Part shown: positions 1 to 56,136 of the stretch, piece by piece
Position numbering within the stretch: position 1 is the stretch's first letter
Layout of the letters: every line of letters starts with the position of its first letter
Source: a virus
Strand: one strand, 5' to 3'
IMG/VR virus record: IMGVR_UViG_3300042987_002630
Coordinates: 1 to 56,136 of that record
DNA length: 56,136 bases
Position numbers and translations under genes: made by a program
Notes under the pieces: generated by a model
Databases searched by the model: none
What the model saw: the letters and a program-made list of their open reading frames with translations, nothing else
Told to the model about the DNA's origin: nothing

Positions 1-979
1 ATGCACTGCAAGTTTGCGATGTGTATGCTGCATGTACGCGAGTTAACCGGACGCCGTTTTCTTCGCATGCATGTTCTATCCGTTGCTGGGCCAAGCCCAC
101 TCGCCAGAATTGATTTCGTCTACCCCATTTGTTACCTTGCTTGATTTCACTCAAGTCTTCCATTACCAAATGGCTGATTTCTTGCCAAGGTATATCGTTT
201 TTGATAGAGTAGTTTATTTGGTTTTTGAGTTCAGTTCTTGCCCTTGCATGAGATTTGCTGCGTTGCTTGCGACGGGCAATAACCTCTAATATGTCTTTGA
301 CTCTTTTACCAGTGGTATGGGTGGTTTCTATGTTGCCGTTGGAACAAGTGACCAACTTGTTTCTGCCCATGTCCACACCCATGATGGCTTGGTTGGGTCG
401 CAAGGCTACATCTTTGACAAAATAGATACCCAAGCTACCATCGGAATTAACACGCAAACAATTGGTTTTCATGACAAAACCACGTCGCATTAGGTCTTGC
501 ATGTGACGTGTGGGTGTGAATGGGATGAAATAACTACCACGAGGAAATGATGTGATCTTGATCCAGTGGCTGGCAATCTTGCTTGTTCGATTCTCTTGTA
601 TGTCAATAAATCTTGAATCTAGCTCAATGTTAACTGAATTGATGTCAATGGACAAGCTTTTGTTGTTCCATTTGTTTAGGATTTCTTGTTGGTATTTTTG
701 TAGGTTGTTGGCTTTTTGAGCCAATTTAACTTTCTCTTGAATTGATCTGACCATTGCGCTGGCTTGTTTGGCACACACCTGACTCAAACGAGCTGGCAAT
801 TGAATTTGATCAGTGACGTCTTTGTTGGCAAATTTGGTTATTTTATCTTGATATAACTGGTGATCAACTAGTTTTTGTAGTTCTCGTTTATAGATATCAA
901 ATGGCCGCATCAACATCAAGTGTTTGATGTGATTGGCTAGTTTGGGTCTGTAAGTTGATATCCTAGTAATCTTGCTCAT
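1..979 (-). CDS. tnpB: TnpB-like RNA-guided nuclease, partial (runs off left edge)
   Basis: An open frame of 326 codons starts at an ATG at 977-979 on the minus strand and has no stop before the window edge. It reads as a TnpB/IS605 OrfB protein: the RuvC-I aspartate lies in MGVDMGRNKL (about residue 208), the RuvC-II glutamate in HLVMEDLSEIK (about residue 277), and the frame ends just as the zinc ribbon begins (TSQTCSA). Family role: an RuvC-like nuclease guided by an RNA from the element's right end. That right end lies outside the window, so guide and element ends cannot be seen. The protein is clearly a different lineage from the four-copy TnpB family later in the window: the N-terminus and RuvC-I context differ, and the typical left-end sequence (CTCCCGCCGCGG) is missing upstream. 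It could be a domesticated or homing TnpB rather than an insertion sequence. The assignment is confident; mobility is unknown. Confidence 0.85.
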   Translation of the reverse strand, partial: MSKITRISTYRPKLANHIKHLMLMRPFDIYKRELQKLVDHQLYQDKITKFANKDVTDQIQLPARLSQVCAKQASAMVRSIQEKVKLAQKANNLQKYQQEILNKWNNKSLSIDINSVNIELDSRFIDIQENRTSKIASHWIKITSFPRGSYFIPFTPTRHMQDLMRRGFVMKTNCLRVNSDGSLGIYFVKDVALRPNQAIMGVDMGRNKLVTCSNGNIETTHTTGKRVKDILEVIARRKQRSKSHARARTELKNQINYSIKNDIPWQEISHLVMEDLSEIKQGNKWGRRNQFWRVGLAQQRIEHACEENGVRLTRVHAAYTSQTCSA

Positions 980-1183: not shown

Positions 1184-1211
1184 TTGCGAAATGAATGAAA
1201 ATATGTAATAC
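1184..1211 (+). promoter_or_regulatory. sigma70-like promoter of the structured RNA
   Basis: TTGCGA (1184-1189), a 16-bp spacer and TAATAC (1206-1211) lie just upstream of the structured RNA, predicting a start near 1218. The rest of 980-1183 is AT-rich and has no convincing gene. It separates this unit from the divergent TnpB gene. Confidence 0.5.
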
Positions 1212-1217
1212 TCCCTG

Positions 1218-1674
1218 TATATCTTCCACAGGTAGGCGCACGTATATGTGGTCTTGGGAAACCAAGATGTCGGAAGGGTATTAGAGGCCTATATAGGAGG
1301 ACTCTCGGTCAACACACATCAAACGCAAGCTGAGTTGCTAGGGTTATATAACCTTTTGCGAGGCCTAGCAGCCAATTTGTGGGACTAGTCCAACCTCAAG
1401 TAACTTGAGGTTGGAAACATTGCAGCAAAAATGACAGCGCGGTGGAGTACTACGCCGTATTGTAAGAGCCACGTATTGTGAGTAACCTGAGCTCTTCCAG
1501 TCTTACGGATTGCCCCTTCTGGGACTGGGAAAAAGCGCAGGAGTGAAATAATCTCTAGATGCGGTAGGCTTGGCAAGCTGTTTGAGCCCATTTTATTCTC
1601 TACTGAATCGGAATAGCAAGGTCCCTGCTGCAATCTGATCCCCATGCTTTGGCTAGCATGGGGATTATTTTTTT
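1218..1674 (+). ncRNA. large structured non-coding RNA, family not identified
   Basis: About 455 nt with no credible ORF, bounded by a sigma70-like promoter and an excellent intrinsic terminator. Visible structure: a perfect 6-bp stem capped by a GAAA tetraloop (1252-1257 with 1262-1267); AGAG/CTCT at 1283-1305 around a GGCCTATATAGG palindrome; GCTAGG/CCTAGC (1337-1342 with 1364-1369) crossing CGCAA/TTGCG (1324-1328 with 1356-1360), which would be a pseudoknot; an 11-bp perfect hairpin at 1390-1414; and CCAGTC/GACTGG (1497-1502 with 1523-1528). The density of helices and the GNRA loop indicate a folded RNA rather than a leader. Phage-associated families of comparable character are GOLLD and ROOL, but I cannot match it to either from memory. 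It lacks the conserved cores I would expect of RNase P or a group I intron. It lies divergent to a TnpB gene and about 190 nt before uvsW, and is separated from uvsW by its own terminator. Confidence 0.75.
1638..1674 (+). terminator. intrinsic terminator of the structured RNA
   Basis: A 10-bp perfect stem (ATCCCCATGC / GCATGGGGAT) has an 8-nt loop and is followed by TATTTTTTT. This is the strongest terminator in the window. Confidence 0.9.
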
Positions 1675-1867: not shown

Positions 1868-4438
1868 ATGACAGACGTTGCTCAAATTTTGATTGAAGAT
1901 GAAGTAAACATTCATATCAAAAATATTGATCTGCCTACCAAAAAAGCATTGGTAAATGCTGTAAAGTTCTTTCTGCCACAAGCCCGTTATTCCCCTGCCT
2001 ATAAACTGGGTAGATGGGACGGTTGCACAAGCTTTTGTACATTGGGTGGCAAAACCTATCTCAACACATTGGACCGTCTGTTGCCAGTACTTCAAGACAG
2101 GGGATATGAATTTGAGATTGAGGACCAACGTGCTTATCATAAATTTGATTTTGACACTATTGATGAAACCTATCTGAGTGACATAACTTGGCCTCATGGA
2201 CATAGATTTGCCTATGAGAAGATTATCCTGCGTGATTATCAGATAGATGCTATCAATACCTGCCTACAGAATCTACAGGGGGTAAATGTACTGCCCACCA
2301 GTGCTGGTAAATGTCAACCATTATATGCCAAAGTTAAAACCCCACATGGCTGGGCCACCATGGGCGATCTAAAAGTGGGTGATTGGGTAGTTACTCCCAA
2401 AGGCAATGCTGCACAAGTTCAAGCTGTATTTGAACCAGGGCATAAGGATGTATATGAGTTAACGTTCAAGGATGGCAGAAAGGTCAGATCTTGTGAAGAT
2501 CATATTTGGCCCATCTTCCACCATGATTGGCAGAATAAGACCAAATTGTTGAGCCTAAAGGACATTATCACATTAAAGAATAAAACCAAACGACGTATAG
2601 GTGTGCCATTGGCAACTATGAGTCAAGACGTTCAACCTAGGACTCTTTCTCTAGATCCTTACTTGTTGGGCGTTATGTTGGGTGACGGATCTTTCAGGCA
2701 TGGCATTGGTATTACTTCACAAGATCAATTCATTCTGGACAAAGTTTCCGGTTTGTTGCACTCTGACTATGTGTTGAAACATCATGATCAATATGATTGG
2801 TCTATTGTGTTTAAAGATCATCACACTCATATGAGCTATAGATCAGTGTATGCCAAAAATCAAAAGAGAGACATATGTGGCAAGATTATTAAGGGTCAAC
2901 AATTGCCATCATATCATCTCTATAAATCTGTCCTAAATGATCTGGGACTTATGGGCACATATAGCCACACCAAGTTTATCCCAGAAATCTATTTGAATGC
3001 ATCATATCCACAGAGGTTGGAATTACTCAAAGGTCTCATGGATACGGATGGTTACGTGGATGCTAGGGGTGGCTATTCATATACTACTGTGAGTCCACAG
3101 CTTGCGGCTGACTTTGTGTATTTGATCAGAAGCGTGGGCGGCATAGCTTATACTAAAGTGTTAAAGAACAGGTCATATGTGAATAAAACTGGTGATAGGA
3201 TAAGCACAAAAGATGCATACACCATCAGGATATATCATCCCACTCCTGAACTGTTGGTGTCCCTTCCTCGCAAGCTGGATAGACTCCGGAGTCAAACTGT
3301 GAGATCCATACCTGTTCTCCCAATTACTGACATCAAACAGGTATCACATGAGCCTGTCAAATGCATCATGATTGACGATCCTGATCATTTATATCTGACA
3401 GATGACTTTGTTATGACACATAACACCCTCGTGACAGCCACCTTGAGCAAGATTGTGGAACCATATGGCAGAACAATTGTGATTGTTCCCAACAAAAATC
3501 TTGTGCAACAAACTGAGGAAGATTATCGCAATATTGGTTTGGATGTGGGGGTGTTGTATGGTGACAGGAAAGAATATGATCGTAAACATACCATCTGCAC
3601 ATGGCAAAGTTTGAATGTGTTGGACAAAAAACACAAGGATGCTTTGGATAATCTACAAATGGATGTATTCCTCAAAGATCTCACAGCAATCATAGTTGAT
3701 GAGTGTCATGCTATAAAGGACTTGAATATCCTACACAAATTGTTGACCACAGTGTTCAAAAATATACCCATTCGCTGGGGTTTGACTGGCACCATTCCCG
3801 AAGAAGAATACAAACAAATGGGATTGTTTACAGCAATTGGGCCACAAATTGGCATTTTGACTGCCAAAGAGCTACAAGACAAAGGTGTTTTGGCACAATG
3901 TCATGTGACAGTATTGCAAACTCAAGAAACTCTACAATATGGCAATTATCAGGAAGAACTCAAACATTTGCTGACTAATGATCAGCGTTTGACATGGATG
4001 GCCGGCATTATAGAAGAGATTGCCAACAGTGGTAACACCCTGGTGTTGGTAGATAGGATTGAAACTGGACAAAAACTCTATAACCAATTGAGTGACAGTG
4101 TGTTTATCAGCGGTGAAATGAAAAGCCAAGACCGTAGAGAACACTACAAAGAGATCAATTTCAGCGACAACAAGATAATGGTTGCTACTTATGGCACAAC
4201 CAGCACAGGCATAAATATTTCAAGAATATTTAATCTTGTATTAGTAGAAGCCGGCAAAAGTTTTGTACGTACTATTCAAAGTATTGGACGTGGCCTGCGT
4301 ATGGCTGATGACAAGGACAGAGTGGAGATTTATGACCTATGCAGCCGAATGAAATTCTCAAACAATCACTTGAACAAACGCAAGCAGTTCTACAACAAAG
4401 CTCAATATCCTTATGTGATCAAAAAGATCACGTATTAG
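1868..4438 (+). CDS. uvsW: UvsW-like recombination helicase with an in-frame intein
   Basis: A superfamily 2 helicase of the UvsW type, which in T4 unwinds branched recombination and fork intermediates and R-loops. The extein comprises residues 1-148 and 520-856 (485 aa, close to T4 UvsW at about 500). Motifs in order: the Q-motif-like region LRDYQIDAI; Walker A PTSAGK-T, interrupted between K148 and T520 by the intein; DECH box (IIVDECHAIKD); GLTGT (motif III); QSIGRGLRM (motif VI). The helicase cannot bind ATP until the intein is spliced out, because the intein splits the GKT triplet. The start ATG follows a weak AAGGA-like site. The 3' end overlaps the frame of the downstream homing endonuclease. 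Confidence 0.93.
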   Translation: MTDVAQILIEDEVNIHIKNIDLPTKKALVNAVKFFLPQARYSPAYKLGRWDGCTSFCTLGGKTYLNTLDRLLPVLQDRGYEFEIEDQRAYHKFDFDTIDETYLSDITWPHGHRFAYEKIILRDYQIDAINTCLQNLQGVNVLPTSAGKCQPLYAKVKTPHGWATMGDLKVGDWVVTPKGNAAQVQAVFEPGHKDVYELTFKDGRKVRSCEDHIWPIFHHDWQNKTKLLSLKDIITLKNKTKRRIGVPLATMSQDVQPRTLSLDPYLLGVMLGDGSFRHGIGITSQDQFILDKVSGLLHSDYVLKHHDQYDWSIVFKDHHTHMSYRSVYAKNQKRDICGKIIKGQQLPSYHLYKSVLNDLGLMGTYSHTKFIPEIYLNASYPQRLELLKGLMDTDGYVDARGGYSYTTVSPQLAADFVYLIRSVGGIAYTKVLKNRSYVNKTGDRISTKDAYTIRIYHPTPELLVSLPRKLDRLRSQTVRSIPVLPITDIKQVSHEPVKCIMIDDPDHLYLTDDFVMTHNTLVTATLSKIVEPYGRTIVIVPNKNLVQQTEEDYRNIGLDVGVLYGDRKEYDRKHTICTWQSLNVLDKKHKDALDNLQMDVFLKDLTAIIVDECHAIKDLNILHKLLTTVFKNIPIRWGLTGTIPEEEYKQMGLFTAIGPQIGILTAKELQDKGVLAQCHVTVLQTQETLQYGNYQEELKHLLTNDQRLTWMAGIIEEIANSGNTLVLVDRIETGQKLYNQLSDSVFISGEMKSQDRREHYKEINFSDNKIMVATYGTTSTGINISRIFNLVLVEAGKSFVRTIQSIGRGLRMADDKDRVEIYDLCSRMKFSNNHLNKRKQFYNKAQYPYVIKKITY
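2312..3424 (+). other. LAGLIDADG intein within UvsW (371 aa)
   Basis: Intein residues 149-519 of the UvsW precursor run from Cys149 (block A, CQPLYAKVKTPHGWATMGDL) to the terminal His-Asn (block G, FVMTHN), followed by Thr as the +1 nucleophile. Block B contains RSCEDHIW. Two LAGLIDADG helices are visible: YLLGVMLGDGS and LLKGLMDTDGYVD. The endonuclease acidic residues (D of GDG and D of TDG) are present, so both splicing and homing look potentially active. The insertion point is the Walker A lysine/threonine, a typical intein site because repair without loss of function demands precise removal. Confidence 0.93.
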
Positions 4439-13363: not shown

Positions 13364-14650
13364 ATGTCAGCAACTACTAGGGATTACAGCGAAGACGTAC
13401 AAAAAATGCTGATCAGTGTATTGTTGAGTGATGAGGAAATTTTTGCACGTTGCCAAAACATTCTACAGGCCAAATATTTTGTCAACAAATTGCGTCCAGT
13501 TGTGAGATTCATGATGGAATTTGCCAACCAATACAGAGCTGTGCCCAAACATGAGCAGATCAAGGCACAATTTGGTATTGAATTGGACAAAATGGATCGA
13601 ATAAACCCAGCCCTACAACAAGCATTTTTGGATCAGATCGAAGAATTTTGTAAGAACAGAGCTTTGGCTGATGCTGTGTTGAGTGCAGGTGATTTGATTG
13701 CCAAGGGTAATTATGGAGAAGTTGAAAAGCGAGTGAGAGAAGCCATTTTGGTGGGTCTCAACAGCAATATTGGTATCCGTTATTATGATGATCCTAGGGA
13801 AAGGTTGATGCGTATCAAGAATAGTAATGGACAGGTCAGCAGCAGTTGGAAGAGTGTGGATAGCAAGCTGTATGGTGGGGTGAATAGAAAAGAACTGACG
13901 ATCTGGTGTGCTGGCAGTGGTGGCGGCAAGAGTGTGACCATGCAAAACATGGCTGTAAACATGAGCCGTGCCGGGTTGAATGTGATCTATATCAGTCTAG
14001 AACTCAGTGAAGAAATGATCAGCATGCGACTGGACAGCATGGTGAGCGGTGTTGCCACACATGAAATCTTCAAACGACTGGATGATGTGGAAATCAAGGT
14101 TTTATCAGCAGGCAAACGAGCGTCGGATCTACATGTGAGACAGATGCCACAGGGATCAACAACAAATGATTTGCGTGCATATCTCAAGAATTATGAAATT
14201 GAAACTGGACACAAATGTGATGTGTTGATTGTGGATTATTTGGATCTAATGTTTCCCAACAACAAGAAAATTGATGTCAGCAATTTGTATATCAAGGATA
14301 AATATATAACGGAGGAGTTGAGAGGTTTAGCCATGGAAAAAAACATGGTGGCCATCACAGCTTCTCAGTTGGGACGTTGTTTGACCATGGATACCCAAAT
14401 TGAACTGGCTACAGGACAAATCACCACTATTGATCAAATTCAAGAGGGTGATTTCATACAAGGATCCCAAGGTCCGGTTCAAGTCTTGAATGTGTTTCCA
14501 AGGGCCAAACAACTTGTGTTCAAAATTAAGACCAAAAGTGGCAAAGAGATACAAGCTACTGCGCAACACAAATTCCCAACTACAAACGGAACAAGGAGCT
14601 TGGAACATGGACTCGCAATTGGACAAAAACTCTATATCAAAAATACTTGA
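13364..14650 (+). CDS. gp41: replicative helicase gp41, N-terminal part fused to split-intein N half
   Basis: 428 aa: extein residues 1-338, then IntN residues 339-428. The extein is the DnaB-family helicase: N-terminal helical domain, Walker A GSGGGKSVTMQN (about residue 185), Walker B VLIVDYLDL, and the motif ending AITASQLGR where the intein begins. Joined by trans-splicing to the product of 16102-16617, the helicase would be 469 aa (T4 gp41 is 475). The stop codon comes after the IntN domain, and a homing endonuclease gene fills the gap between the two halves. This is the fractured gene arrangement first described for metagenomic phages. Confidence 0.93.
   Translation: MSATTRDYSEDVQKMLISVLLSDEEIFARCQNILQAKYFVNKLRPVVRFMMEFANQYRAVPKHEQIKAQFGIELDKMDRINPALQQAFLDQIEEFCKNRALADAVLSAGDLIAKGNYGEVEKRVREAILVGLNSNIGIRYYDDPRERLMRIKNSNGQVSSSWKSVDSKLYGGVNRKELTIWCAGSGGGKSVTMQNMAVNMSRAGLNVIYISLELSEEMISMRLDSMVSGVATHEIFKRLDDVEIKVLSAGKRASDLHVRQMPQGSTTNDLRAYLKNYEIETGHKCDVLIVDYLDLMFPNNKKIDVSNLYIKDKYITEELRGLAMEKNMVAITASQLGRCLTMDTQIELATGQITTIDQIQEGDFIQGSQGPVQVLNVFPRAKQLVFKIKTKSGKEIQATAQHKFPTTNGTRSLEHGLAIGQKLYIKNT
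14378..14647 (+). other. split intein IntN of gp41 (90 aa)
   Basis: It begins with Cys339 (CLTMDTQIELATGQITTIDQ, block A) after extein SQLGR. Block B-like AQHKFPTT carries the TxxH-type histidine. It ends KLYIKNT-stop. Sequence and size are very close to the published gp41-8 split intein family, which also interrupts gp41 at this position. Confidence 0.92.
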
Positions 14651-19317: not shown

Positions 19318-20573
19318 GCCCTGGATGGATAGCGGCTTTTTGAATAGATTATATAAATAGATTTATGAAACAGCGATATCGATACAGGATTTATCCAACC
19401 CCTGCTCAAGAACAACAGATGCGTTCTGTGGGCGGAGCAGTGCGATATCTATACAATCATTTCCTACGTGTAAACATTGATGAATATCAATTGAACAAAA
19501 AATTTGTTTGGCAGTTTGACATGTGCAAACAACTGACTGAATTGAAGAAACACAACAAATGGTTATCAGATACCTACAGTCAAGTACTACAACAAAGCAT
19601 AAGTGACTTGGATACAGCACTGAAAAATATGAAAAAGACAGGTGCTGGATTCCCCAAATTCAAAAGCAAATGCACAACACCTGTTAGCTTTAGATATCAA
19701 CAAAATGTGAGAGTTGACAACAACAAGCTATATCTACCCAAGATTGGTCACATCAAGATTGTATTGCATAGGGATTTGCCCACATTCAAGGGTGTGACTG
19801 TAACTCAAACACCACGTGGTTGGTATGCAAGCTTTGTGGTGGATGTGGCAGAACTGCCATTGGTTCAGAACATAACCAACCCGGTGGGGGTGGATGTCAA
19901 CAGCAAATTCACGGCATTGAGCACTGGTGAATTGATTGCCAATCCCAAGCCATTGGGGAAGAAACAAGCACGTATCCGACTGCTACAACGCAAACTATCC
20001 AGAAAACAAAAAGCAAGTAGAAATAGAACCAAAGCAAAACAAAAACTGGCACGAACTCACGATCTGGTTCGCTGCCAAAGAACTAACCATATACATCAGA
20101 CAAGTGCGAGAATAGCCAAATCACATGACCTGGTGTCAGTTGAAACACTGAAAATTGATGAGATGAGACGCAAGAGCAAGCCCATAGCCAAGTGTATAGC
20201 TGATGCTGGTTGGGCTATGTTGATTGGTGCATTGGCCTACAAGTGCCAAAGGCAAGGCCATCATCTCATTCGTATCAATCAGTGGCTACCCAGCAGCAAG
20301 ACCTGCTCCTCATGTGGTGCACGCAAAAGTCACATGGATCTCAAGCAAAGAGAATATCATTGTGATCATTGCGGAATAACTCAGCACAGGGACACTAATG
20401 CAGCCATCAATATTCGCAATTGGGGACATCAACAATGGACAATAGATCATGCAGGGCAGGAACTGCCCCAAGCGCCTGTGGATGTGATGGCAGATATTCT
20501 CGCCAATTGGGGTCAGATATCAGCCACTACGATGAAGCAGGAAGCCACAGCCCTTTAGGGCGTGGTAGTTCAC
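19288..20573 (+). mobile_element. TnpB-only IS200/IS605-like element, complete copy (copy A)
   Basis: About 1286 bp with left end CTCCCGCCGCGG and a CCAGG/CCTGG hairpin region, directly preceded by TTAC (19284-19287), the insertion tetranucleotide known for IS608. The right end carries the CCAC-GCCC/GGGC-GTGG hairpin and terminates TAGTTCAC. It contains tnpB only. Comparison with the copies at 25594, 33690, 54775 and 55200 defines the ends. The last roughly 110 bp, conserved in all copies, overlap the tnpB 3' end and are the expected place of the guide (omega) RNA. A T4-type late promoter TATAAATA (19352-19359) lies inside the element 6 nt before the tnpB ATG. Confidence 0.85.
19365..20558 (+). 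CDS. tnpB: TnpB, RNA-guided nuclease of copy A
   Basis: 397 aa, a normal TnpB length. N-terminal MKQRYRYRIYPTPAQEQQM is the usual OrfB start. RuvC-I Asp in NPVGVDVNSKF; RuvC-II Glu in DLVSVETLKI; zinc ribbon CSSC...CDHC; RuvC-III Asp in QHRDTNAAINI. All catalytic and metal residues are in place, so the nuclease should be active. With no TnpA in the window, its likely role is to cut empty sites and so retain the element, or to act as a homing nuclease among phages. The TATAAATA promoter just before it suggests expression at late times. Confidence 0.93.
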   Translation: MKQRYRYRIYPTPAQEQQMRSVGGAVRYLYNHFLRVNIDEYQLNKKFVWQFDMCKQLTELKKHNKWLSDTYSQVLQQSISDLDTALKNMKKTGAGFPKFKSKCTTPVSFRYQQNVRVDNNKLYLPKIGHIKIVLHRDLPTFKGVTVTQTPRGWYASFVVDVAELPLVQNITNPVGVDVNSKFTALSTGELIANPKPLGKKQARIRLLQRKLSRKQKASRNRTKAKQKLARTHDLVRCQRTNHIHQTSARIAKSHDLVSVETLKIDEMRRKSKPIAKCIADAGWAMLIGALAYKCQRQGHHLIRINQWLPSSKTCSSCGARKSHMDLKQREYHCDHCGITQHRDTNAAINIRNWGHQQWTIDHAGQELPQAPVDVMADILANWGQISATTMKQEATAL

Positions 20574-33716: not shown

Positions 33717-34917
33717 ATCTGGACCTTGGGCGGCTGATGGTTGAATTTTATAAATAGATTTATGAAACTGCCATATCTCTATAGGAACCATCAATTCCCA
33801 CAACAGGACCTACAGATGCAGTCTGTGGGCAATGCAGTGCGATACCCCTACAATCATTTCCTCCAGGTTAACATTGATGAAAATCAATTGATCAAAAAGT
33901 TTTTTTGGCAAGCGGACATGTGCAAGCACTTGACCCAGTTGAACACAGCCCACAAGTGGACAAATCCAACGTACAGTCAGGTAATACAACCATGCATAAG
34001 TGACTTGGTTTGTGCACTGAAAGACATAGGTGCTGGTTTACCCAAATTTAAGAACAAATATATTACACCTGTTATTTTTAGATGTCCACAAAATGTCTCA
34101 ATCACTAACGATAGATTATATCCAGCCAAGATTGGTCACATCAAGATTGTATTGTATGGAGATTTGACCTCATTCAAAGGTGTGGCTGTCATACAAACAC
34201 CATCACGTGTTTGGTTGGCAAATTTTGTAGTAGATGGGTTGGAACAGCCCTTGGTGGAAAACATAACCCAGCCAGTGGTTGGGGACGTCAACAGCAAATT
34301 AACCATCCTATCAACTAGTGTAATATTGTCCACGCACAAGCCATTAGTGAAAAAACCATCAGGTATCCGACTGCTACATGGCAAACTATCAAGCAAGCAA
34401 AACGCAGGTAAGGATAACATCCAAGACAAAAACAAGCAGCTGAGGACTCATGATCTGGTTCGCTGCCCAAGATCAAACCATCTATCTCAGACCAGTGCGA
34501 GAATAGTCAAATCACATGACCCAAGCTCAGTTGCAACACTCAATGCAGATGCTGGTTGGACTGTATTAGCTGGTTCATTAGCCTACAAGTTGCCTAGGCC
34601 AGGGCACCTTGTTAGACGTATAAATCAGTGGTTACTAAGCAGCAAACCCTGTGCTGCAACTGTTGCACACAAAAGTCACTGGAATCTCACGCAACGAGAA
34701 TACTATTATGATGATTGCACAATCACACAGCACAGGCACTTGAATGCAGAGGTCAGAATCAGCAACTGGGAACATCAACAGTGCAGTATGGGTCATGCAG
34801 GGTTGGAAATGCTCCAAGAGCATGTGGATGTGGTAACACACAATCTAACTGATTGGGGTCTGATGTCAAGCACGACGTTAGAACAAGAAGTCACAGCCCC
34901 TAGGGCGTGGTAGTTCA
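33690..34917 (+). mobile_element. degenerate full-length TnpB element (copy C)
   Basis: About 1228 bp. The left end CTCCCACGGAAAGCCGG is a mutated form of the consensus, with TTAC 3-6 nt before it. An internal late promoter TATAAATA is retained (33749-33756). The right end keeps the hairpin (CCCCTAGGG) and TAGTTCA. Numerous substitutions relative to copies A and E show that it is the oldest copy, yet its reading frame is open throughout. Confidence 0.8.
33762..34913 (+). CDS. nuclease-dead TnpB with intact reading frame
   Basis: 383 aa from ATG 33762. It aligns along its whole length with the copy A TnpB, but the RuvC-II segment SVETLKIDEM has become SVATLNADAG with a small deletion (catalytic Glu lost). 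The zinc-ribbon cysteines CSSC are CAAT, the second CDHC is DDC (only one Cys left), and the RuvC-III HRDTNA is HRHLNA (Asp lost). Only the RuvC-I Asp survives. No stop or frameshift has appeared despite heavy divergence. It is either simply decaying, or kept as an RNA-binding protein without cutting, as in TnpB-derived repressors (TldR). The next gene is a tail fibre. Could also be listed as a pseudogene. Confidence 0.7.
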   Translation: MKLPYLYRNHQFPQQDLQMQSVGNAVRYPYNHFLQVNIDENQLIKKFFWQADMCKHLTQLNTAHKWTNPTYSQVIQPCISDLVCALKDIGAGLPKFKNKYITPVIFRCPQNVSITNDRLYPAKIGHIKIVLYGDLTSFKGVAVIQTPSRVWLANFVVDGLEQPLVENITQPVVGDVNSKLTILSTSVILSTHKPLVKKPSGIRLLHGKLSSKQNAGKDNIQDKNKQLRTHDLVRCPRSNHLSQTSARIVKSHDPSSVATLNADAGWTVLAGSLAYKLPRPGHLVRRINQWLLSSKPCAATVAHKSHWNLTQREYYYDDCTITQHRHLNAEVRISNWEHQQCSMGHAGLEMLQEHVDVVTHNLTDWGLMSSTTLEQEVTAPRAW

Positions 34918-37079: not shown

Positions 37080-38009
37080 ATGACTGCTAGATCTGGTGAG
37101 CCTATCTTTGTTGAAAAAAGAAATGGCGACAAAGAACCACTTAATATCGACAAAATTCATAGACAGGTCATGTGGGCCACTGAGGGCCTGAGTGGTGTAA
37201 GTGCCAGTGAAGTAGAGATCAAAACTCAACTACAATTTTACAACCGAATCCGAACTGTGGACATTCAAGAAACTTTGATCAAGGCTGCTGCCGATCTGAT
37301 CAGCTTGGATGCACCCAACTATCAATTTGTTGCAGCTAGATTGGTCAATCATCACATACGCAAAGAAGCTTATGGTGATTTTGCTGTTCCAGATCTTTTG
37401 CCTCATGTGAAAAAAGTAGTGGAGGCTGGATTTTATACCACAGAATTGCTGGAATGGTACACACCTGAAGAGTTTGACATCCTGGACACCTATATTGATC
37501 ATACTAGAGATTTTGATCTCACATTTGCTGCCATGGAACAATGGCGAGGCAAATATCTGGTGAAAAATCGTGTGACAGGTCAATTGTTTGAAACTCCTCA
37601 AATGGCCTATATGTTGATTGCTGCCACATTATTTCATAACTATCCCAAACACAGCCGACTCAAATGGGTCAAAGATTTTTATGACAGCATCAGTTTGCAT
37701 GATATTAGCTTGCCCACACCCATCATGGCAGGTGTGAGAACCACACAAAAACAATTCAGTTCATGTGTGTTGATTGAAAGTGATGATAGCTTGGATAGTA
37801 TCAGTGCTGTGAGCCATGCTATTGTACGTTATGTTAGCCGTAAAGCAGGTATCGGTTTGAACGTTGGTCGTATTCGGGCAATTAATTCACCCATTAGAGG
37901 TGGGGATGCCTATCACACAGGTGTGACTCCTTTTATCAAGTTGTTCCAGGCATCAGTCAAGAGTTGTGCTGATGAAAACACATGGGTTGAAATTATTGAT
38001 GAAGAATAA
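37080..38009 (+). CDS. nrdA: ribonucleotide reductase NrdA, N-terminal part ending in a 14-residue split intein
   Basis: 309 aa: extein 1-295, IntN 296-309. Class Ia large subunit: ATP-cone IFVEKRNGDKEPLNIDKIHR, then the ten-strand barrel start, with KQFSSCVLIESDDSLDSI containing the first redox cysteine (E. coli C225). The extein stops at FIKLFQASVKS; the next residue in uninterrupted NrdA is the Cys of the second gene (T4: VKSCSQGG). AAGGGA lies 7 nt before the ATG. The reading frame ends in TAA after 14 intein residues, and the rest of the protein is encoded by a second gene 47 nt downstream with its own ribosome site. Confidence 0.92.
   Translation: MTARSGEPIFVEKRNGDKEPLNIDKIHRQVMWATEGLSGVSASEVEIKTQLQFYNRIRTVDIQETLIKAAADLISLDAPNYQFVAARLVNHHIRKEAYGDFAVPDLLPHVKKVVEAGFYTTELLEWYTPEEFDILDTYIDHTRDFDLTFAAMEQWRGKYLVKNRVTGQLFETPQMAYMLIAATLFHNYPKHSRLKWVKDFYDSISLHDISLPTPIMAGVRTTQKQFSSCVLIESDDSLDSISAVSHAIVRYVSRKAGIGLNVGRIRAINSPIRGGDAYHTGVTPFIKLFQASVKSCADENTWVEIIDEE
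37965..38006 (+). other. very short split-intein N fragment in NrdA (14 aa)
   Basis: CADENTWVEIIDEE-stop, beginning with the nucleophilic Cys296 right after extein VKS. The complement is the 131-aa IntC of the next gene. The break lies within block A, an atypical N-terminal split site like the AceL/VidaL-type inteins, not the usual endonuclease position. Confidence 0.85.
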
Positions 38010-38056: not shown

Positions 38057-38449
38057 ATGAAGACTAAAAGAATACAACTCAAAGATTTGAAACCAGGGAT
38101 GCGAATCAAGAGTTTTGATGGAAACAATCATGTGTTTCAAAAAGTAGTGGATGTTTGGCAGACAATTGTGGACCCTCAAGACCGCCTGATTCTCACCTTC
38201 ACCAACGGTACCAAGCTCAAATGTAGCGCAAGGCATCCTATTATGGTGCTAGAGGATGATCAATTGATCCAAGTGATGCCCAAAGAACTAACACAATTTC
38301 ATGAAATTGTAACTGACACTGGCACCTGTTATTTGGAATCCCTGGAATCTGATTCCTCAGATGTTCGATATCTGGATCTGGAAGTGGAAAACACAAACAC
38401 TTTTTTTGCAAGTGCGGAAAAAGCCGACCCCTTGATTTTAACACATAAT
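38057..38449 (+). other. split-intein C fragment in NrdA (131 aa)
   Basis: MKTKRIQLKDLKPGMRIKSF continues block A; KLKCSARHPIMV is block B with the conserved His; RYLDLEVENTNTFFAS and LILTHN are blocks F and G, followed by Cys. There is no endonuclease domain, so homing would depend on an enzyme in trans or has been lost. Confidence 0.87.
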
Positions 38450-40333
38450 TGCAACCAAGGTGGTGTGCGATCCGGCGCCGCCACAGCTTATTTCCCATTC
38501 TGGCATCTTGAATTTGATGATCTAATTGTGTTGAAAAACAACAAGGGCACAGAAGAAAATCGTGCCAGGCACATGGATTATGGTGTGCAATTCAACAAAC
38601 TAGCCTACGAACGGTTGCTGTCAGGTGGTAACATCACACTGTTCAGTCCCAGTGATGTGCCTGGCTTGTATGATGCTTTTTTTGCTGACCAAAACCTATT
38701 CCAAGAATTGTATGAGAAATATGAATCTGATTCCAAGATCCGCAAAAAAACTATCAGGGCAGTGGATTTGTTCACCACATTCATGAACGAACGCAAGAAC
38801 ACTGGCCGTGTGTATATAATGAATGTGGATCATGCCAACACACATGGTTCATATATAGAACATTTGGCTCCTATCAGACAGAGCAATCTGTGCCTCACAG
38901 GTGATTCACAACTTAACATTCAGCACACAGATGGTATTGAGAAGTCCATGGACTTGGCTAGCTTTGTGCAAGCCTGGAACTATGGTGACATGAATAATGT
39001 GAAGGTACGCAGCTACAACACAGAAACTGGAGAGTTTGTGTGGAGTCAAGTGAGTGCTGCTGCCTGGACTGCCACAGTAACTGAACTTGTGGAGATTGAG
39101 GATGACAAGGGCAACGTGATCCGTTGCACTCCTGATCATCAAATCTGGACCAAGAACAGGAGCTGGGTGATGGCCAAAGATTTGGCAGAAACTGATCTGG
39201 TATGTACTGACACAAATCTTACACAAGACAGATACGTGGGACTCAAATTTCACAAAATTCAAGTGGAACCAACTCGTGTGTATGATATCACTGTACCAGA
39301 AACTTCTGCATTTGTGGCCAACAATGTGGTGGTTCACAATTGTGCAGAAATATCTTTGCCCACTCTACCACTTCAAAGCATTGACGATGAAAGCCCTGCT
39401 GTGGCACTCTGTACTCTTGCAGCTATAAATTGGGGCAAGATACGTGAACCCAAGGATTTTGAAAAGCCTTGCCGGCTGGCAGTAAGAGCATTGGATGCAC
39501 TCTTGGACTATCAGGAATATCCAGTCAAGGCAGCAGAGGCACACACCAGGAAATTTCGCCCACTGGGAATAGGCATTATCTCTTTGGCGTACTGGATTGC
39601 CAAGATGGGTTTCAAATACAGTGACGACAGCGCACTTGCCTCCTTGGATGAATATGCTGAGGCCTGGAGTTATTATATGATAAGAGCCAGTGTAGATTTG
39701 GCCAAGGAACGCGGTGCACCTGAGGGGTCAAAATTAACCAAATACCATGAGGGTATTGTGCCCATTGACACACGCAAACGAGATACTGATGAACTGGTGG
39801 GCTATGCTGAAAGATTGCCCTGGGATAAATTGCGCGAAGATCTCCGAGCATATGGCATTCGCAACACAACACTGTTGGCTTGCATGCCCAGTGAGGCATC
39901 CAGCTTGATCAGCAATTCCACCAATGGTATCGAACCACCCCGTAGCTTGATTTCCGTCAAACAAAGCAAAGATGGCGTGATGAAACAAGTGGTTCCAGAA
40001 TATCGCCGACTGAAAAACCGTTATGAACTGCTTTGGGATCAAAAAAGTCCTGAAGGATATCTCAAGATTGTGGCAGTTCTACAGCGTTGGATGGATCAAA
40101 CCATCAGTGCCAACACCAGTTACAATCCCAATTTCTATCCTGATGGACAGTTGCCCATGAGTGAAATGCTACGTCATATGCTGCTGATGTACAAATGGGG
40201 TATAAAAACCGCGTACTATTTCAACGTATTGGATGGGCAAGAAGAATTGAATGTTGACAAGCTGATGCTGGAACAAAATTCAGATCTCCTAGACAAAACA
40301 GATCCAGCAGAATGCGAAGCTTGCACCATTTGA
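38057..40333 (+). CDS. nrdA: ribonucleotide reductase NrdA, C-terminal part, with IntC and a second intein
   Basis: 758 aa: IntC 1-131, extein 132-278, mini-intein 279-428, extein 429-758. AAAGG lies 11 nt before ATG. Extein landmarks: CNQGGVRSGAATAYFPFWH, FSPSDVPGLYDAFF, HLAPIRQSNL joined to CAEISLPT (N437-L-C439-x-E441 of E. coli, the thiyl radical site), ALCTLAAINWG (C462), SNATNG-type glycine-rich loop (ISNSTNGIEPPR), and the C-terminal ECEACTI redox pair. Mature NrdA would be 295 + 477 = 772 aa (T4: 754). Trans-splicing at VKS/C and cis-splicing at SNL/C are both needed to give an active enzyme. Confidence 0.92.
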   Translation: MKTKRIQLKDLKPGMRIKSFDGNNHVFQKVVDVWQTIVDPQDRLILTFTNGTKLKCSARHPIMVLEDDQLIQVMPKELTQFHEIVTDTGTCYLESLESDSSDVRYLDLEVENTNTFFASAEKADPLILTHNCNQGGVRSGAATAYFPFWHLEFDDLIVLKNNKGTEENRARHMDYGVQFNKLAYERLLSGGNITLFSPSDVPGLYDAFFADQNLFQELYEKYESDSKIRKKTIRAVDLFTTFMNERKNTGRVYIMNVDHANTHGSYIEHLAPIRQSNLCLTGDSQLNIQHTDGIEKSMDLASFVQAWNYGDMNNVKVRSYNTETGEFVWSQVSAAAWTATVTELVEIEDDKGNVIRCTPDHQIWTKNRSWVMAKDLAETDLVCTDTNLTQDRYVGLKFHKIQVEPTRVYDITVPETSAFVANNVVVHNCAEISLPTLPLQSIDDESPAVALCTLAAINWGKIREPKDFEKPCRLAVRALDALLDYQEYPVKAAEAHTRKFRPLGIGIISLAYWIAKMGFKYSDDSALASLDEYAEAWSYYMIRASVDLAKERGAPEGSKLTKYHEGIVPIDTRKRDTDELVGYAERLPWDKLREDLRAYGIRNTTLLACMPSEASSLISNSTNGIEPPRSLISVKQSKDGVMKQVVPEYRRLKNRYELLWDQKSPEGYLKIVAVLQRWMDQTISANTSYNPNFYPDGQLPMSEMLRHMLLMYKWGIKTAYYFNVLDGQEELNVDKLMLEQNSDLLDKTDPAECEACTI
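38891..39340 (+). other. contiguous mini-intein in NrdA next to the radical cysteine (150 aa)
   Basis: It starts CLTGDSQLNIQ (block A) after extein RQSNL. Block B CTPDHQIWTKNRSW. Blocks F and G: RVYDITVPETSAFVANN and VVVHN, then Cys, which is the catalytic thiyl cysteine of NrdA. This is the same insertion site as the known NrdA-2 split intein, but here the two halves are fused and there is no endonuclease. Confidence 0.92.
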
Positions 40334-44435: not shown

Positions 44436-44443
44436 CTTTTCAT

Positions 44444-44472
44444 TTGACATCCTGATCACATTGTCATAAATT
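44444..44472 (+). promoter_or_regulatory. sigma70 promoter of the tmRNA gene
   Basis: A consensus TTGACA (44444-44449), a 17-bp spacer and TAAATT (44467-44472) predict a start near 44479, at the first hairpin of the tmRNA precursor. Confidence 0.6.
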
Positions 44473-44478
44473 ATATCA

Positions 44479-44846
44479 GTTGCTGTTTGTGTGTGACCAG
44501 TCACACACAAGAAAGTTAGACAAATAAGCTGGACAAGACGGGGTTTTCGAATACCCCCGGCTCCACCAGCAAACACGCGGGAAGCCCAATGTGTCTATAA
44601 ATCGGGCGTAATATGTGTGACACCAGTCCCGTGTGTTTGCTTGTGGGGCCGACAGGGATAGATTGACAGTAGTAAGGTCAAAACTAGGTAATCGGTAAGA
44701 TACGACCGCTCGTAAGAGATTTGTTCATCATTATAATGGCCAACGACAACGTTGCCCTTGCAGTGGCTGCCTAAACAGCATTGCAGCGTGTGGTTCACGT
44801 GGTAACAGAACGAACCCGGAAAGGGCGGCATTGCCGCCCTTTCTGT
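44479..44846 (+). ncRNA. ssrA: two-piece (circularly permuted) tmRNA
   Basis: tmRNA rescues stalled ribosomes and tags the nascent chain for proteolysis. Gene order is permuted: the acceptor piece comes first, ending in a T-arm (GGGG..TTCGAAT..CCCC) and CGGCTCCACCA at 44558-44568. The coding piece follows, starting GGGGCCG at 44645-44651. These two pair as a 7-bp acceptor stem with G3-U70, the alanine identity wobble. The excised spacer (44569-44644) is closed by a 14-bp helix (44569-44582 with 44627-44640). The tag frame GCC-AAC-GAC-AAC...GCT-GCC-TAA (44739-44774) encodes ANDNVALAVAA, with the ANDN start and hydrophobic VAA end of ClpXP-degraded tags. A 5' hairpin (44487-44510) precedes the acceptor piece. 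The T-stem has one irregularity (an extra T or a T/C mismatch). A proteobacterial origin is likely. Confidence 0.9.
44821..44846 (+). terminator. terminator of tmRNA, possibly shared with the convergent gene
   Basis: AAGGGCGGCATTGCCGCCCTTT forms a compact GC-rich hairpin followed by CTGTC. It lies 18 nt from the stop of the convergent minus-strand gene, so it can serve both strands. Confidence 0.75.
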
Positions 44847-45711: not shown

Positions 45712-45735
45712 CATGTGTTGATTAGGAGGTCTCGC

Positions 45736-46449
45736 ATGTTGGATAATAGTTCAGTTGTGTATGTGACAGCTCACAACAATCCACAGGTGATGGATGGTTT
45801 GAGATTGTTCATGCGTTCAGTTTACAATCAGATGGTTGCTGCCTTGGCTATAAGTGGAGTCAGTGCTTGGTTGACCATGATAATCCTGGGCCCTTGGCTC
45901 AGTGGGTGGTTTGCCTTGCTTTTGGCTTTGGTTCCATTGCCATTTGTGTTTGTTCTCAGTTATGGCATATATAATTTTCAATACAATACAGCCAAACTTT
46001 TGTTTGTACTTTTTGCCATCAGCATGGGAATGAGCATGAGTTTGTTGTTCCTGATGTTTACAGCAGAAAGCATTGTTGTGGTATTTTTTATCACTGCTGC
46101 CACGTTTGCAAGTGCCAGTATTGTGGGATACACCACAAAACGTGATCTCAGCGGCTGGGGAAATTTTCTCATCATGGGGTTGGTGGGAATTTTGATTGCC
46201 AGCATTGTTAACATTTGGTTGATGAGCAGCATGCTGAGTTTTGTAGTCAGTGTGTTGGCAGTGTTGATTTTTACTGCACTCACTGCATGGGACACACAAA
46301 ACCTCAAAAACGATTATTTGACCAATGGAGATGTGTTGGGTTATGACAGCCCTGAACGCAGTGCCTTGTATGGCGCACTCAGCTTGTATCTCAATTTTGT
46401 GAACATTTTCCAGGCGTTGTTGAGTCTACTGGGGGATAGAGACGATTGA
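45736..46449 (+). CDS. Bax inhibitor-1/YccA-family membrane protein
   Basis: 237 aa from ATG 45736 (AGGAGG 7 nt upstream; the frame opens earlier at a GTG without a ribosome site). It has a short cytoplasmic N-terminus, then about seven hydrophobic segments, including MVAALAISGVSAWLTMIILG, ISMGMSMSLLFLMFTAESIV, LIMGLVGILIASIVNIWLM and FVVSVLAVLIFTALTAWDTQ. It ends in YGALSLYLNFVNIFQALLSLLGDRDD, the conserved BI-1 C-terminus. E. coli YccA of this family binds and inhibits the membrane protease FtsH. A phage copy may protect phage proteins from FtsH, or affect calcium or pH homeostasis. Own promoter and terminator. Confidence 0.88.
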   Translation: MLDNSSVVYVTAHNNPQVMDGLRLFMRSVYNQMVAALAISGVSAWLTMIILGPWLSGWFALLLALVPLPFVFVLSYGIYNFQYNTAKLLFVLFAISMGMSMSLLFLMFTAESIVVVFFITAATFASASIVGYTTKRDLSGWGNFLIMGLVGILIASIVNIWLMSSMLSFVVSVLAVLIFTALTAWDTQNLKNDYLTNGDVLGYDSPERSALYGALSLYLNFVNIFQALLSLLGDRDD

Positions 46450-55199: not shown

Positions 55200-56136
55200 G
55201 TGAACTACCACGCCCTAAAGGGCTGTGGCTTCCTGCTTGATCGTATTGGCTGACAGCAGACCCCAATGAGTGAGAATATCTGTTATCACATCCACAGGCG
55301 CAGGGGGCAGTTCCTGCCCTGCATGATCTATTGTCCATTGTTGATGTCCCCAGTTGCGAATATTGATGGCTGCATTAGTGTCCCTGTGCTGAGTTATTCC
55401 GCAATGATCACAATGATATTCTCTTTGCTTGAGATCCATGTGACTTTTGCGGGTGCCACATGCACTACAGGTCTTGCTACTGGGTAGCCACTGATTGATC
55501 TTGATGAAATGGTGGCCTTGGCGTTGGCATTTGTAGGCCAATACACCAATCAACATAGCCCAACCCGCATCTGCTATGGCCTTGGCTGTGGGCTTGCTCT
55601 TGCGTCTCAGCTGATCAATTTTCAGTGTTTCAACTGACACCAGGTCATGTGATTTGGCTATTCTCACACTTGTCTGATGTATATGGTCCAGTCTTTGGCA
55701 GAGAACCAGATCATGGGTTCTTGCCAGTCGTGTTTTTGCTTTCAGTCTATTCCTACTTGCTTTTTGTTTTCTGGATAGCTTGCGTTGTAACAGTCGGATA
55801 CGTGCTTGTTTCTTCACCAATGGCTTGGGATTTGGAACTAGCTCACCAGTTGATAGTGCTGTGAACTTGCTGTTGACGTCCACACCCACTGAATTGGTTA
55901 TGTTTTGAACCAATGGCAGTTCCAAGACATCAACCACAAATGAGGCATACCAACCACGTGGTGTTTGAATCACAGTCACACCCTTAAACTTGGGAAGATC
56001 TCGATGGAGTACAATCTTGACGTCTCCAATCTTGGGTAGATATAGCTTGTTGTTGTCAACTCTCACGTTTTGTGGATATCTAAAGCTAACAGGAGTTGTG
56101 TATTTGCTTTTGAATCGTGGGAATCCAGCACCTGTC
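55200..56136 (-). mobile_element. TnpB element, right part, continuing past the window edge (copy E)
   Basis: The right end TAGTTCAC (minus strand) begins at 55200. It is tail-to-tail with copy D, leaving only 54 bp between the two right ends. The left end is outside the window. Confidence 0.85.
55215..56136 (-). CDS. tnpB: TnpB, RNA-guided nuclease, partial (runs off right edge)
   Basis: About 307 codons, open to the window edge (the upstream codons read AGFPRFKSKYTTPVSFRYPQ, so the ATG near 56066 is internal). RuvC-I Asp in NSVGVDVNSKF, RuvC-II Glu in DLVSVETLKID, zinc ribbon CSAC...CDHC, and RuvC-III HRDTNA are all intact. Very close to copy A by eye (differences such as KIDQLRRKSKP versus KIDEMRRKSKP). 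It could provide TnpB in trans for copies B and D. Confidence 0.93.
   Translation of the reverse strand, partial: TGAGFPRFKSKYTTPVSFRYPQNVRVDNNKLYLPKIGDVKIVLHRDLPKFKGVTVIQTPRGWYASFVVDVLELPLVQNITNSVGVDVNSKFTALSTGELVPNPKPLVKKQARIRLLQRKLSRKQKASRNRLKAKTRLARTHDLVLCQRLDHIHQTSVRIAKSHDLVSVETLKIDQLRRKSKPTAKAIADAGWAMLIGVLAYKCQRQGHHFIKINQWLPSSKTCSACGTRKSHMDLKQREYHCDHCGITQHRDTNAAINIRNWGHQQWTIDHAGQELPPAPVDVITDILTHWGLLSANTIKQEATAL

Follow-up and report, generated by a model that had tools for sequence, protein, structure and literature searches.

Among the large structured RNAs of bacteriophages, GOLLD is reported to assemble into an RNA-only 14-mer cage, and a ribosome pull-down is mentioned for it, while ROOL is described as a large phage RNA with pseudoknots and no known role (PMC12286853). 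The locus considered here is found at positions 1184-1674 of a window comprising a whole virus record of 56,136 bases. A sequence-only reading of this window had proposed a structured phage RNA, roughly 450 nt long and closed by a terminator, without a catalogued family, and this proposal is supported by the two checks put forward with it, covariation and the lack of a conserved peptide. The RNA almost certainly represents a new family, absent from Rfam 15, which is of the same kind as the large orphan phage RNAs.

Relation to GOLLD, ROOL and other RNA families

In agreement with the earlier failure to match the RNA to a known class, no Rfam 15 family was found at 1184-1674 at gathering or permissive thresholds, the latter being set at E 10 in the window and E 5 in the homologous loci L037, L036 and L014. 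The GOLLD model (RF02032; gathering score: 150 bits) gave zero matches in the window, and GOLLD matches at 182-203 bits in the homologous loci L023, L036 and L037 served as positive controls. The ROOL model had no match in the Rfam searches of the window, L037, L036, L014 or the GOLLD-bearing loci, and no tmRNA, RNase P, group I or II intron or self-cleaving ribozyme was detected at the RNA in the window, L037, L036 and L014. Since no Rfam 15 family matches it, the RNA is neither GOLLD nor ROOL, and the likeness to these two that had been drawn from size and phage setting does not extend to family membership.

The RNA resembles GOLLD in that both are large structured, apparently stand-alone phage RNAs which occur in the same phages, sometimes next door to one another. 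GOLLD differs, however, in having a tRNA inside, which the RNA of the window lacks, and in its 416-position model for the conserved part, as opposed to a core of 210-280 nt across the sequences described here. With ROOL it shares the size class, phage origin and pseudoknots, but not a model match. The alpha-type permuted tmRNA (RF01849/RF04321) is likewise a structured RNA of the same phages, but forms a separate gene, with no tmRNA match at 1184-1674. In the window this tmRNA is located at 44440-44820 on the plus strand (RF04321: 78.2 bits; RF01849: 69.7 bits), where it is not seen by ARAGORN; it is also above the cut-off in the carrier records G007 and G009 and in Sinorhizobium phage Phosso, and below it in G008.

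In L036, L023 and L037, Rfam identified a GOLLD RNA with a tRNA inside, situated 5′ of the RNA and in the same orientation, at distances of 0.36 kb (L037) to approximately 1.3 kb. GOLLD is present in three of ten carrier records, most of those without it being short, while a carrier record of 452,799 bases, which may be incomplete, contains the RNA and no GOLLD. A hairpin and T-run can be read by eye between GOLLD and the RNA in L037, although the scan of this stretch does not list it; the two are thus separate genes, frequently found as neighbours. No second match of the RNA model occurs in the GOLLD-bearing loci, and as judged by sequence comparison the RNA is linked to GOLLD by neighbourhood rather than by homology. 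A frame between GOLLD and the RNA in L036 (2058-2618, plus strand), which lies on the other strand, presumably resembles a GIY-YIG homing endonuclease, going by its motif. Phosso also harbors a GOLLD RNA (L074; 33533-34001, plus strand; 186.6 bits), which is absent from the feature table of the record.

Homologues and carrier phages

The search for homologues started from eleven loci with a gene related to that of the helicase downstream of the RNA, five of which (L003-L007) carry a segment sharing 72% identity with window positions 1416-1634 (E-value: 1.9e-21). Patterns built from the conserved strings added L017, L014/L019, L022, L023, L036 and L037, and the last pattern scans of viral records yielded no further true member. 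By covariance model, the RNA is present in 13 of the 17 virus records searched, at one copy per record, while a fourteenth match, in G016 (E-value: 0.998), is attributed to chance. The thirteen carriers fall into seven distinct sequence groups, namely the window, L007 with five near copies, L014/L019, L022 (with its 5′ end cut), L023, L036 and L037, and five of the six contigs in the L007 group show no more than three letter differences in this region. The pattern matches L024-L035 and L038-L067, judged to be chance by reading and by the model, were left out of the counts, the best of them scoring 19.3 bits under the model versus 113-144 bits for the true members. Those from the genome collection (L033-L035) lack the rest of the motif.

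Among named phages, DNA similarity searches with the window, L037, L036 and L014 returned nothing or chance pieces, and a plasmid search with the L037 core gave only chance similarity (two pieces, E 0.8). The RNA model had no match in Phosso or in three further large phages, and a 21-bit match in Agrobacterium phage Atu_ph07 was rejected, being situated inside a ribonucleotide reductase gene. Among the titles listed in the open-licence PMC literature on GOLLD, ROOL, jumbo phages, Atu_ph07, phage tmRNA and phage-RNA covariation, none describes the RNA.

The window encodes T4-like myovirus genes, including topoisomerase II, ribonucleotide reductase and tail and baseplate proteins. Among named phages, its topoisomerase large subunit is best matched by those of Phosso (469 kb) and Atu_ph07 (490 kb), at 53-54% identity, while identity to the five larger carrier records is 57-64%. 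On sequence grounds, the larger carriers are placed among jumbo T4-like phages akin to these two, and the affinity of the topoisomerase suggests that the host of the window phage is probably an alphaproteobacterium. The ribonucleotide reductase large subunit is split over two plus-strand frames (37080-38009 and 38057-40333), perhaps by a mobile element. Four TnpB/Cas12f-like frames are furthermore found in the window (1-979 and 55215-56135 on the minus strand, 19365-20558 and 33741-34913 on the plus strand), of which that at 33741-34913 matches below the Pfam cut-off, as is a gene for a Bax-inhibitor-1-like membrane protein (45715-46449, plus strand), here carried by a phage.

Conserved core and its structure

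The conserved core, which like the other elements of the RNA lies on the plus strand, spans 1419-1634 and is closed by the 9-bp helix P1 (1419-1427 with 1626-1634); neither the core and its closing helix nor the loop pseudoknot PKb had featured in the sequence-only reading. P1 is fully paired, with differing letters, in each of the six sequences extending to it (shuffle p: 0.0165 for the window and, for the other five, 0.0165 (two), 0.0005, 0.0055 and 0.129). Hairpin P2 (1439-1458; 1439-1444 with 1453-1458) adjoins the invariant motif CAGCGC (1435-1440), and its pairing ranges from 4/5 to 6/6 in six sequences, which tests it weakly because there is little variation. Helix P3 (1521-1625; 1521-1526 with 1620-1625) has 100% of cells paired and two-sided change in five of its six pairs. 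Its 5′ strand is followed by the invariant GGAAAAAGCGCAG (1528-1540), identical in all seven sequences, and by hairpin P4 (1540-1556; loop UGAAAUAAU), with 100% of cells paired and two-sided change in three of four pairs. Helix P5 (1560-1590; 1560-1564 with 1586-1590) is paired in 80% of cells and has two positions that do not pair in the window, while the inner hairpin P5a (1567-1569 with 1577-1579; loop UUGGCAA) is paired in 100%. Hairpin P6 (1594-1609; 88.6% of cells paired) shows two-sided change in two of five pairs, and its loop (1600-1602) pairs with 1614-1616 to form PKb (1600-1616; 90.5% of cells paired), the middle pair of which is CG, AU or UA, depending on the sequence. A pseudoknot had been predicted for this RNA, and PKb provides a covarying one; the crossing pair named in that prediction, CGCAA (1324-1328) with TTGCG (1356-1360), exists as two five-base strings, for which no counterpart could be seen by eye in the nearest homologue, L007.

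The core is conserved by compensatory change in seven distinct sequences, a small number, with the letters of the stems varying. Taken together, P3, P4, P5, P5a, P6 and PKb pair in 92.9% of 182 cells, with two-sided change in at least one sequence for 17 of the 26 pairs. When partners are slid by one to three columns, pairing drops to 26.9-47.7%, a comparison that favours the proposed structure over its slid versions, as this was derived from the same seven-sequence alignment that was used for the counts. For pairing, for the numbers of pairs and of cells with two-sided change and for the covariation score, none of 500 shuffles attained the observed value, while a fifth covariation measure, further pair types, was reached by 75 of the 500. 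RNAalifold, to which the structure was not supplied, recovered P3, P4, P5, P5a and P6, and a leave-one-out model constructed from the other six sequences and the RNAalifold structure identified the RNA as its sole hit in the window (104.7 bits; E-value: 1e-23). The 3′ part of the seven sequences comprises 51 invariant columns of 135, 42 of which lie outside helices by our own count.

A further pseudoknot, PKa, is suggested between the P2 loop and a strand 5′ of P3, with 6-7 perfect pairs in five sequences and four in the window, where it is no better than shuffled sequence (p: 0.91; for comparison, 0.001 in L007 and 0.22-0.39 in the remaining four), although these strands were picked by eye, which biases the contrast between own and cross pairings. 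The strings CAGCGC and GCGCAG, both of them invariant, may also pair.

The earlier statement that the stretch has no ORF holds with little qualification: an ORF of 86 amino acids on the minus strand (1385-1645) is the longest to overlap it. Among the seven homologues no open frame is common to all, and the distances separating conserved blocks do not vary in multiples of three; no conserved peptide is therefore indicated.

Flanking elements and transcription signals

The region has a fold energy of -171 kcal/mol, against -144.1 kcal/mol (sd 6.0) in shuffled sequences (z: -4.49), with none of 100 shuffles equally stable. Several local elements of the sequence-only reading were recovered, including the GAAA-capped stem (1252-1267), present in the sequence and the minimum-energy fold, with no equivalent seen in the homologues, and the 11-bp hairpin with loop UAA just 5′ of the core (1390-1414), also evident in both. 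At the position of the latter, hairpins of other sequence can be seen by eye in L007, L014 and L037. The 5′ domain (1231-1319) is less conserved, its strings GGTAGGC (1231-1237), GCCTAT (1287-1292) and GGTCAACACACAT (1307-1319) recurring slightly altered and in the same order in L007, as read by eye.

The predicted intrinsic terminator is likewise present (1636-1674), as a 13-pair stem (1636-1667) followed by a T-run. The promoter postulated for the window was not retrieved, a scan of positions 900-2000 listing no site of sigma-70 type on the plus strand ahead of 1570. L007 has a perfect TTGACA-16-TATAAT promoter (3325-3352) approximately 230 nt upstream of the core and, after the core, a terminator with 13 pairs (3796-3826), a spacing which corresponds to a transcript of about 470 nt, as in the window. 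The probable extent of the window transcript is 1206-1674 on the plus strand, its 3′ end being set by the terminator and its 5′ end by length in comparison with L007. Promoter-like sites matching 10 of 12 and 9 of 12 consensus positions precede the RNA in L023 and L014, respectively, such consensus matches not in themselves proving use. The scans found no promoter-like site in the right place in L036 and L037, and no hairpin terminator after the RNA in L014, L036, L023 and L037. Within 650 nt upstream of the RNA in the six sequences scanned, no exact copy of the T4-type late promoter TATAAATA occurs, and four of the six have copies with one mismatch. Because promoter and terminator bracket the L007 homologue, the RNA is probably a stand-alone transcript.

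Neighbouring genes

In the window, the RNA is followed, after the strong terminator and approximately 190 nt, by a gene for a ResIII/DEAD-type helicase, while in L007 the helicase gene starts about 1,200 nt past the RNA, behind two frames on the other strand. No constant class of 3′ gene was found across the seven groups: a helicase is encoded in two, small frames and then a CTP synthase in two, and other genes elsewhere, such that five of the seven have neighbours other than the helicase. Conversely, the RNA is absent from the 3.3-3.9 kb upstream of the helicase in loci L009-L011, and there is no model match in L008, L012 and L013, where 0 to 2.3 kb of upstream sequence is present, so the RNA is not tied to the helicase gene. 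A DUF2828 protein, considered as a partner, is encoded in four of nine records, but its window copy has relatives in 680 phage records, and this link is not specific for that reason. The window helicase (1868-4438, plus strand) contains an internal, intein-like LAGLIDADG domain, and a DnaB-like helicase (13364-14650, plus strand) has a weak Hint-domain match at its end.

Alternative explanations and proposed function

One alternative is a leader acting in cis, which would respond to some signal and regulate the 3′ gene, the hairpin after the core serving as an attenuator. Such a leader would suit L014 and L037, where the start of an open frame lies close to the 3′ end of the core without an intervening hairpin terminator, and where small frames and then CTP synthase follow in both. 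The 3′ genes differ among groups, however, and the helicase is separated from the RNA by a strong terminator and about 190 nt in the window and by some 1,200 nt and two opposite-strand frames in L007, leaving the leader improbable. The same can be said of an accessory that works only together with, or in the assembly of, the GOLLD RNA: the same-strand GOLLD 5′ of the RNA in L036, L023 and L037, 0.36 to about 1.3 kb away, is what would be expected of it, but GOLLD occurs in only three of the ten carriers, is missing from the 452,799-base record, which may be incomplete, and is present in Phosso, which has no match to the RNA model. The helicase itself, of ResIII/DEAD type in the window and L007, recalls UvsW of T4, which acts at origin R-loops, and might be taken to indicate a DNA element such as a replication origin rather than a working RNA; with other neighbours in five of the seven groups, compensatory pair changes that include G-U pairs, and a promoter and terminator bracketing the L007 copy, we consider this most improbable.

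A stand-alone transcript with invariant unpaired loops could also be a 6S-type decoy or an antisense regulator, with RNA polymerase or target messages as what it binds. In the window, L037, L036 and L014, however, neither 6S nor any other small-RNA family attains its threshold, and the 6S fold, a long bulged hairpin, is unlike that found here, so that we regard such a regulator as having little likelihood. Many invariant unpaired bases surround the pseudoknot, as might befit a new ribozyme folded by pseudoknots, but no intron, RNase P or self-cleaving family is matched and nothing marks a cleavage site, making a ribozyme very unlikely.

The explanation that we favour overall, with some confidence, is a new stand-alone non-coding RNA family of jumbo T4-like phages, probably of alphaproteobacterial hosts, which acts in trans as a scaffold. 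Differing neighbours and the hairpin terminator that two groups possess point to action in trans, and that the RNA stands alone and works in this manner is considered likely. Stems that change freely while unpaired loops stay fixed are characteristic of an RNA in which the fold serves to present constant contacts. By this scaffold explanation, host RNA polymerase would transcribe the RNA at an early stage of infection, starting at a sigma-70 promoter and stopping at the RNA's own terminator, to give a transcript of about 290-490 nt. The product would be a rigid folded RNA acting in trans, the invariant unpaired loops of which may bind a partner, as is supposed for GOLLD, and so assist the phage in taking control of gene expression in its host. 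By analogy with GOLLD, a scaffold in host takeover is the most likely role. A target in the host translation or RNA machinery is a tentative proposal, for which the ribosome would be the favoured partner in a first test. We think it rather unlikely that the RNA is a wholly new multi-copy RNA machine alongside GOLLD, with PKb and perhaps the PKa and CAGCGC/GCGCAG pseudoknots and an early consensus host promoter; copies of such a machine could even be held together, through the palindromic GCGC elements that are invariant, as a particle made of RNA alone.

Few large structured phage RNAs are known, and GOLLD and ROOL are still without a settled role. The new family comes with a compact core, a consensus structure and a covariance model, and one homologue has both promoter and terminator, so the RNA is amenable to expression and probing. 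That it recurs next to GOLLD furthermore provides a handle on what such RNAs do.
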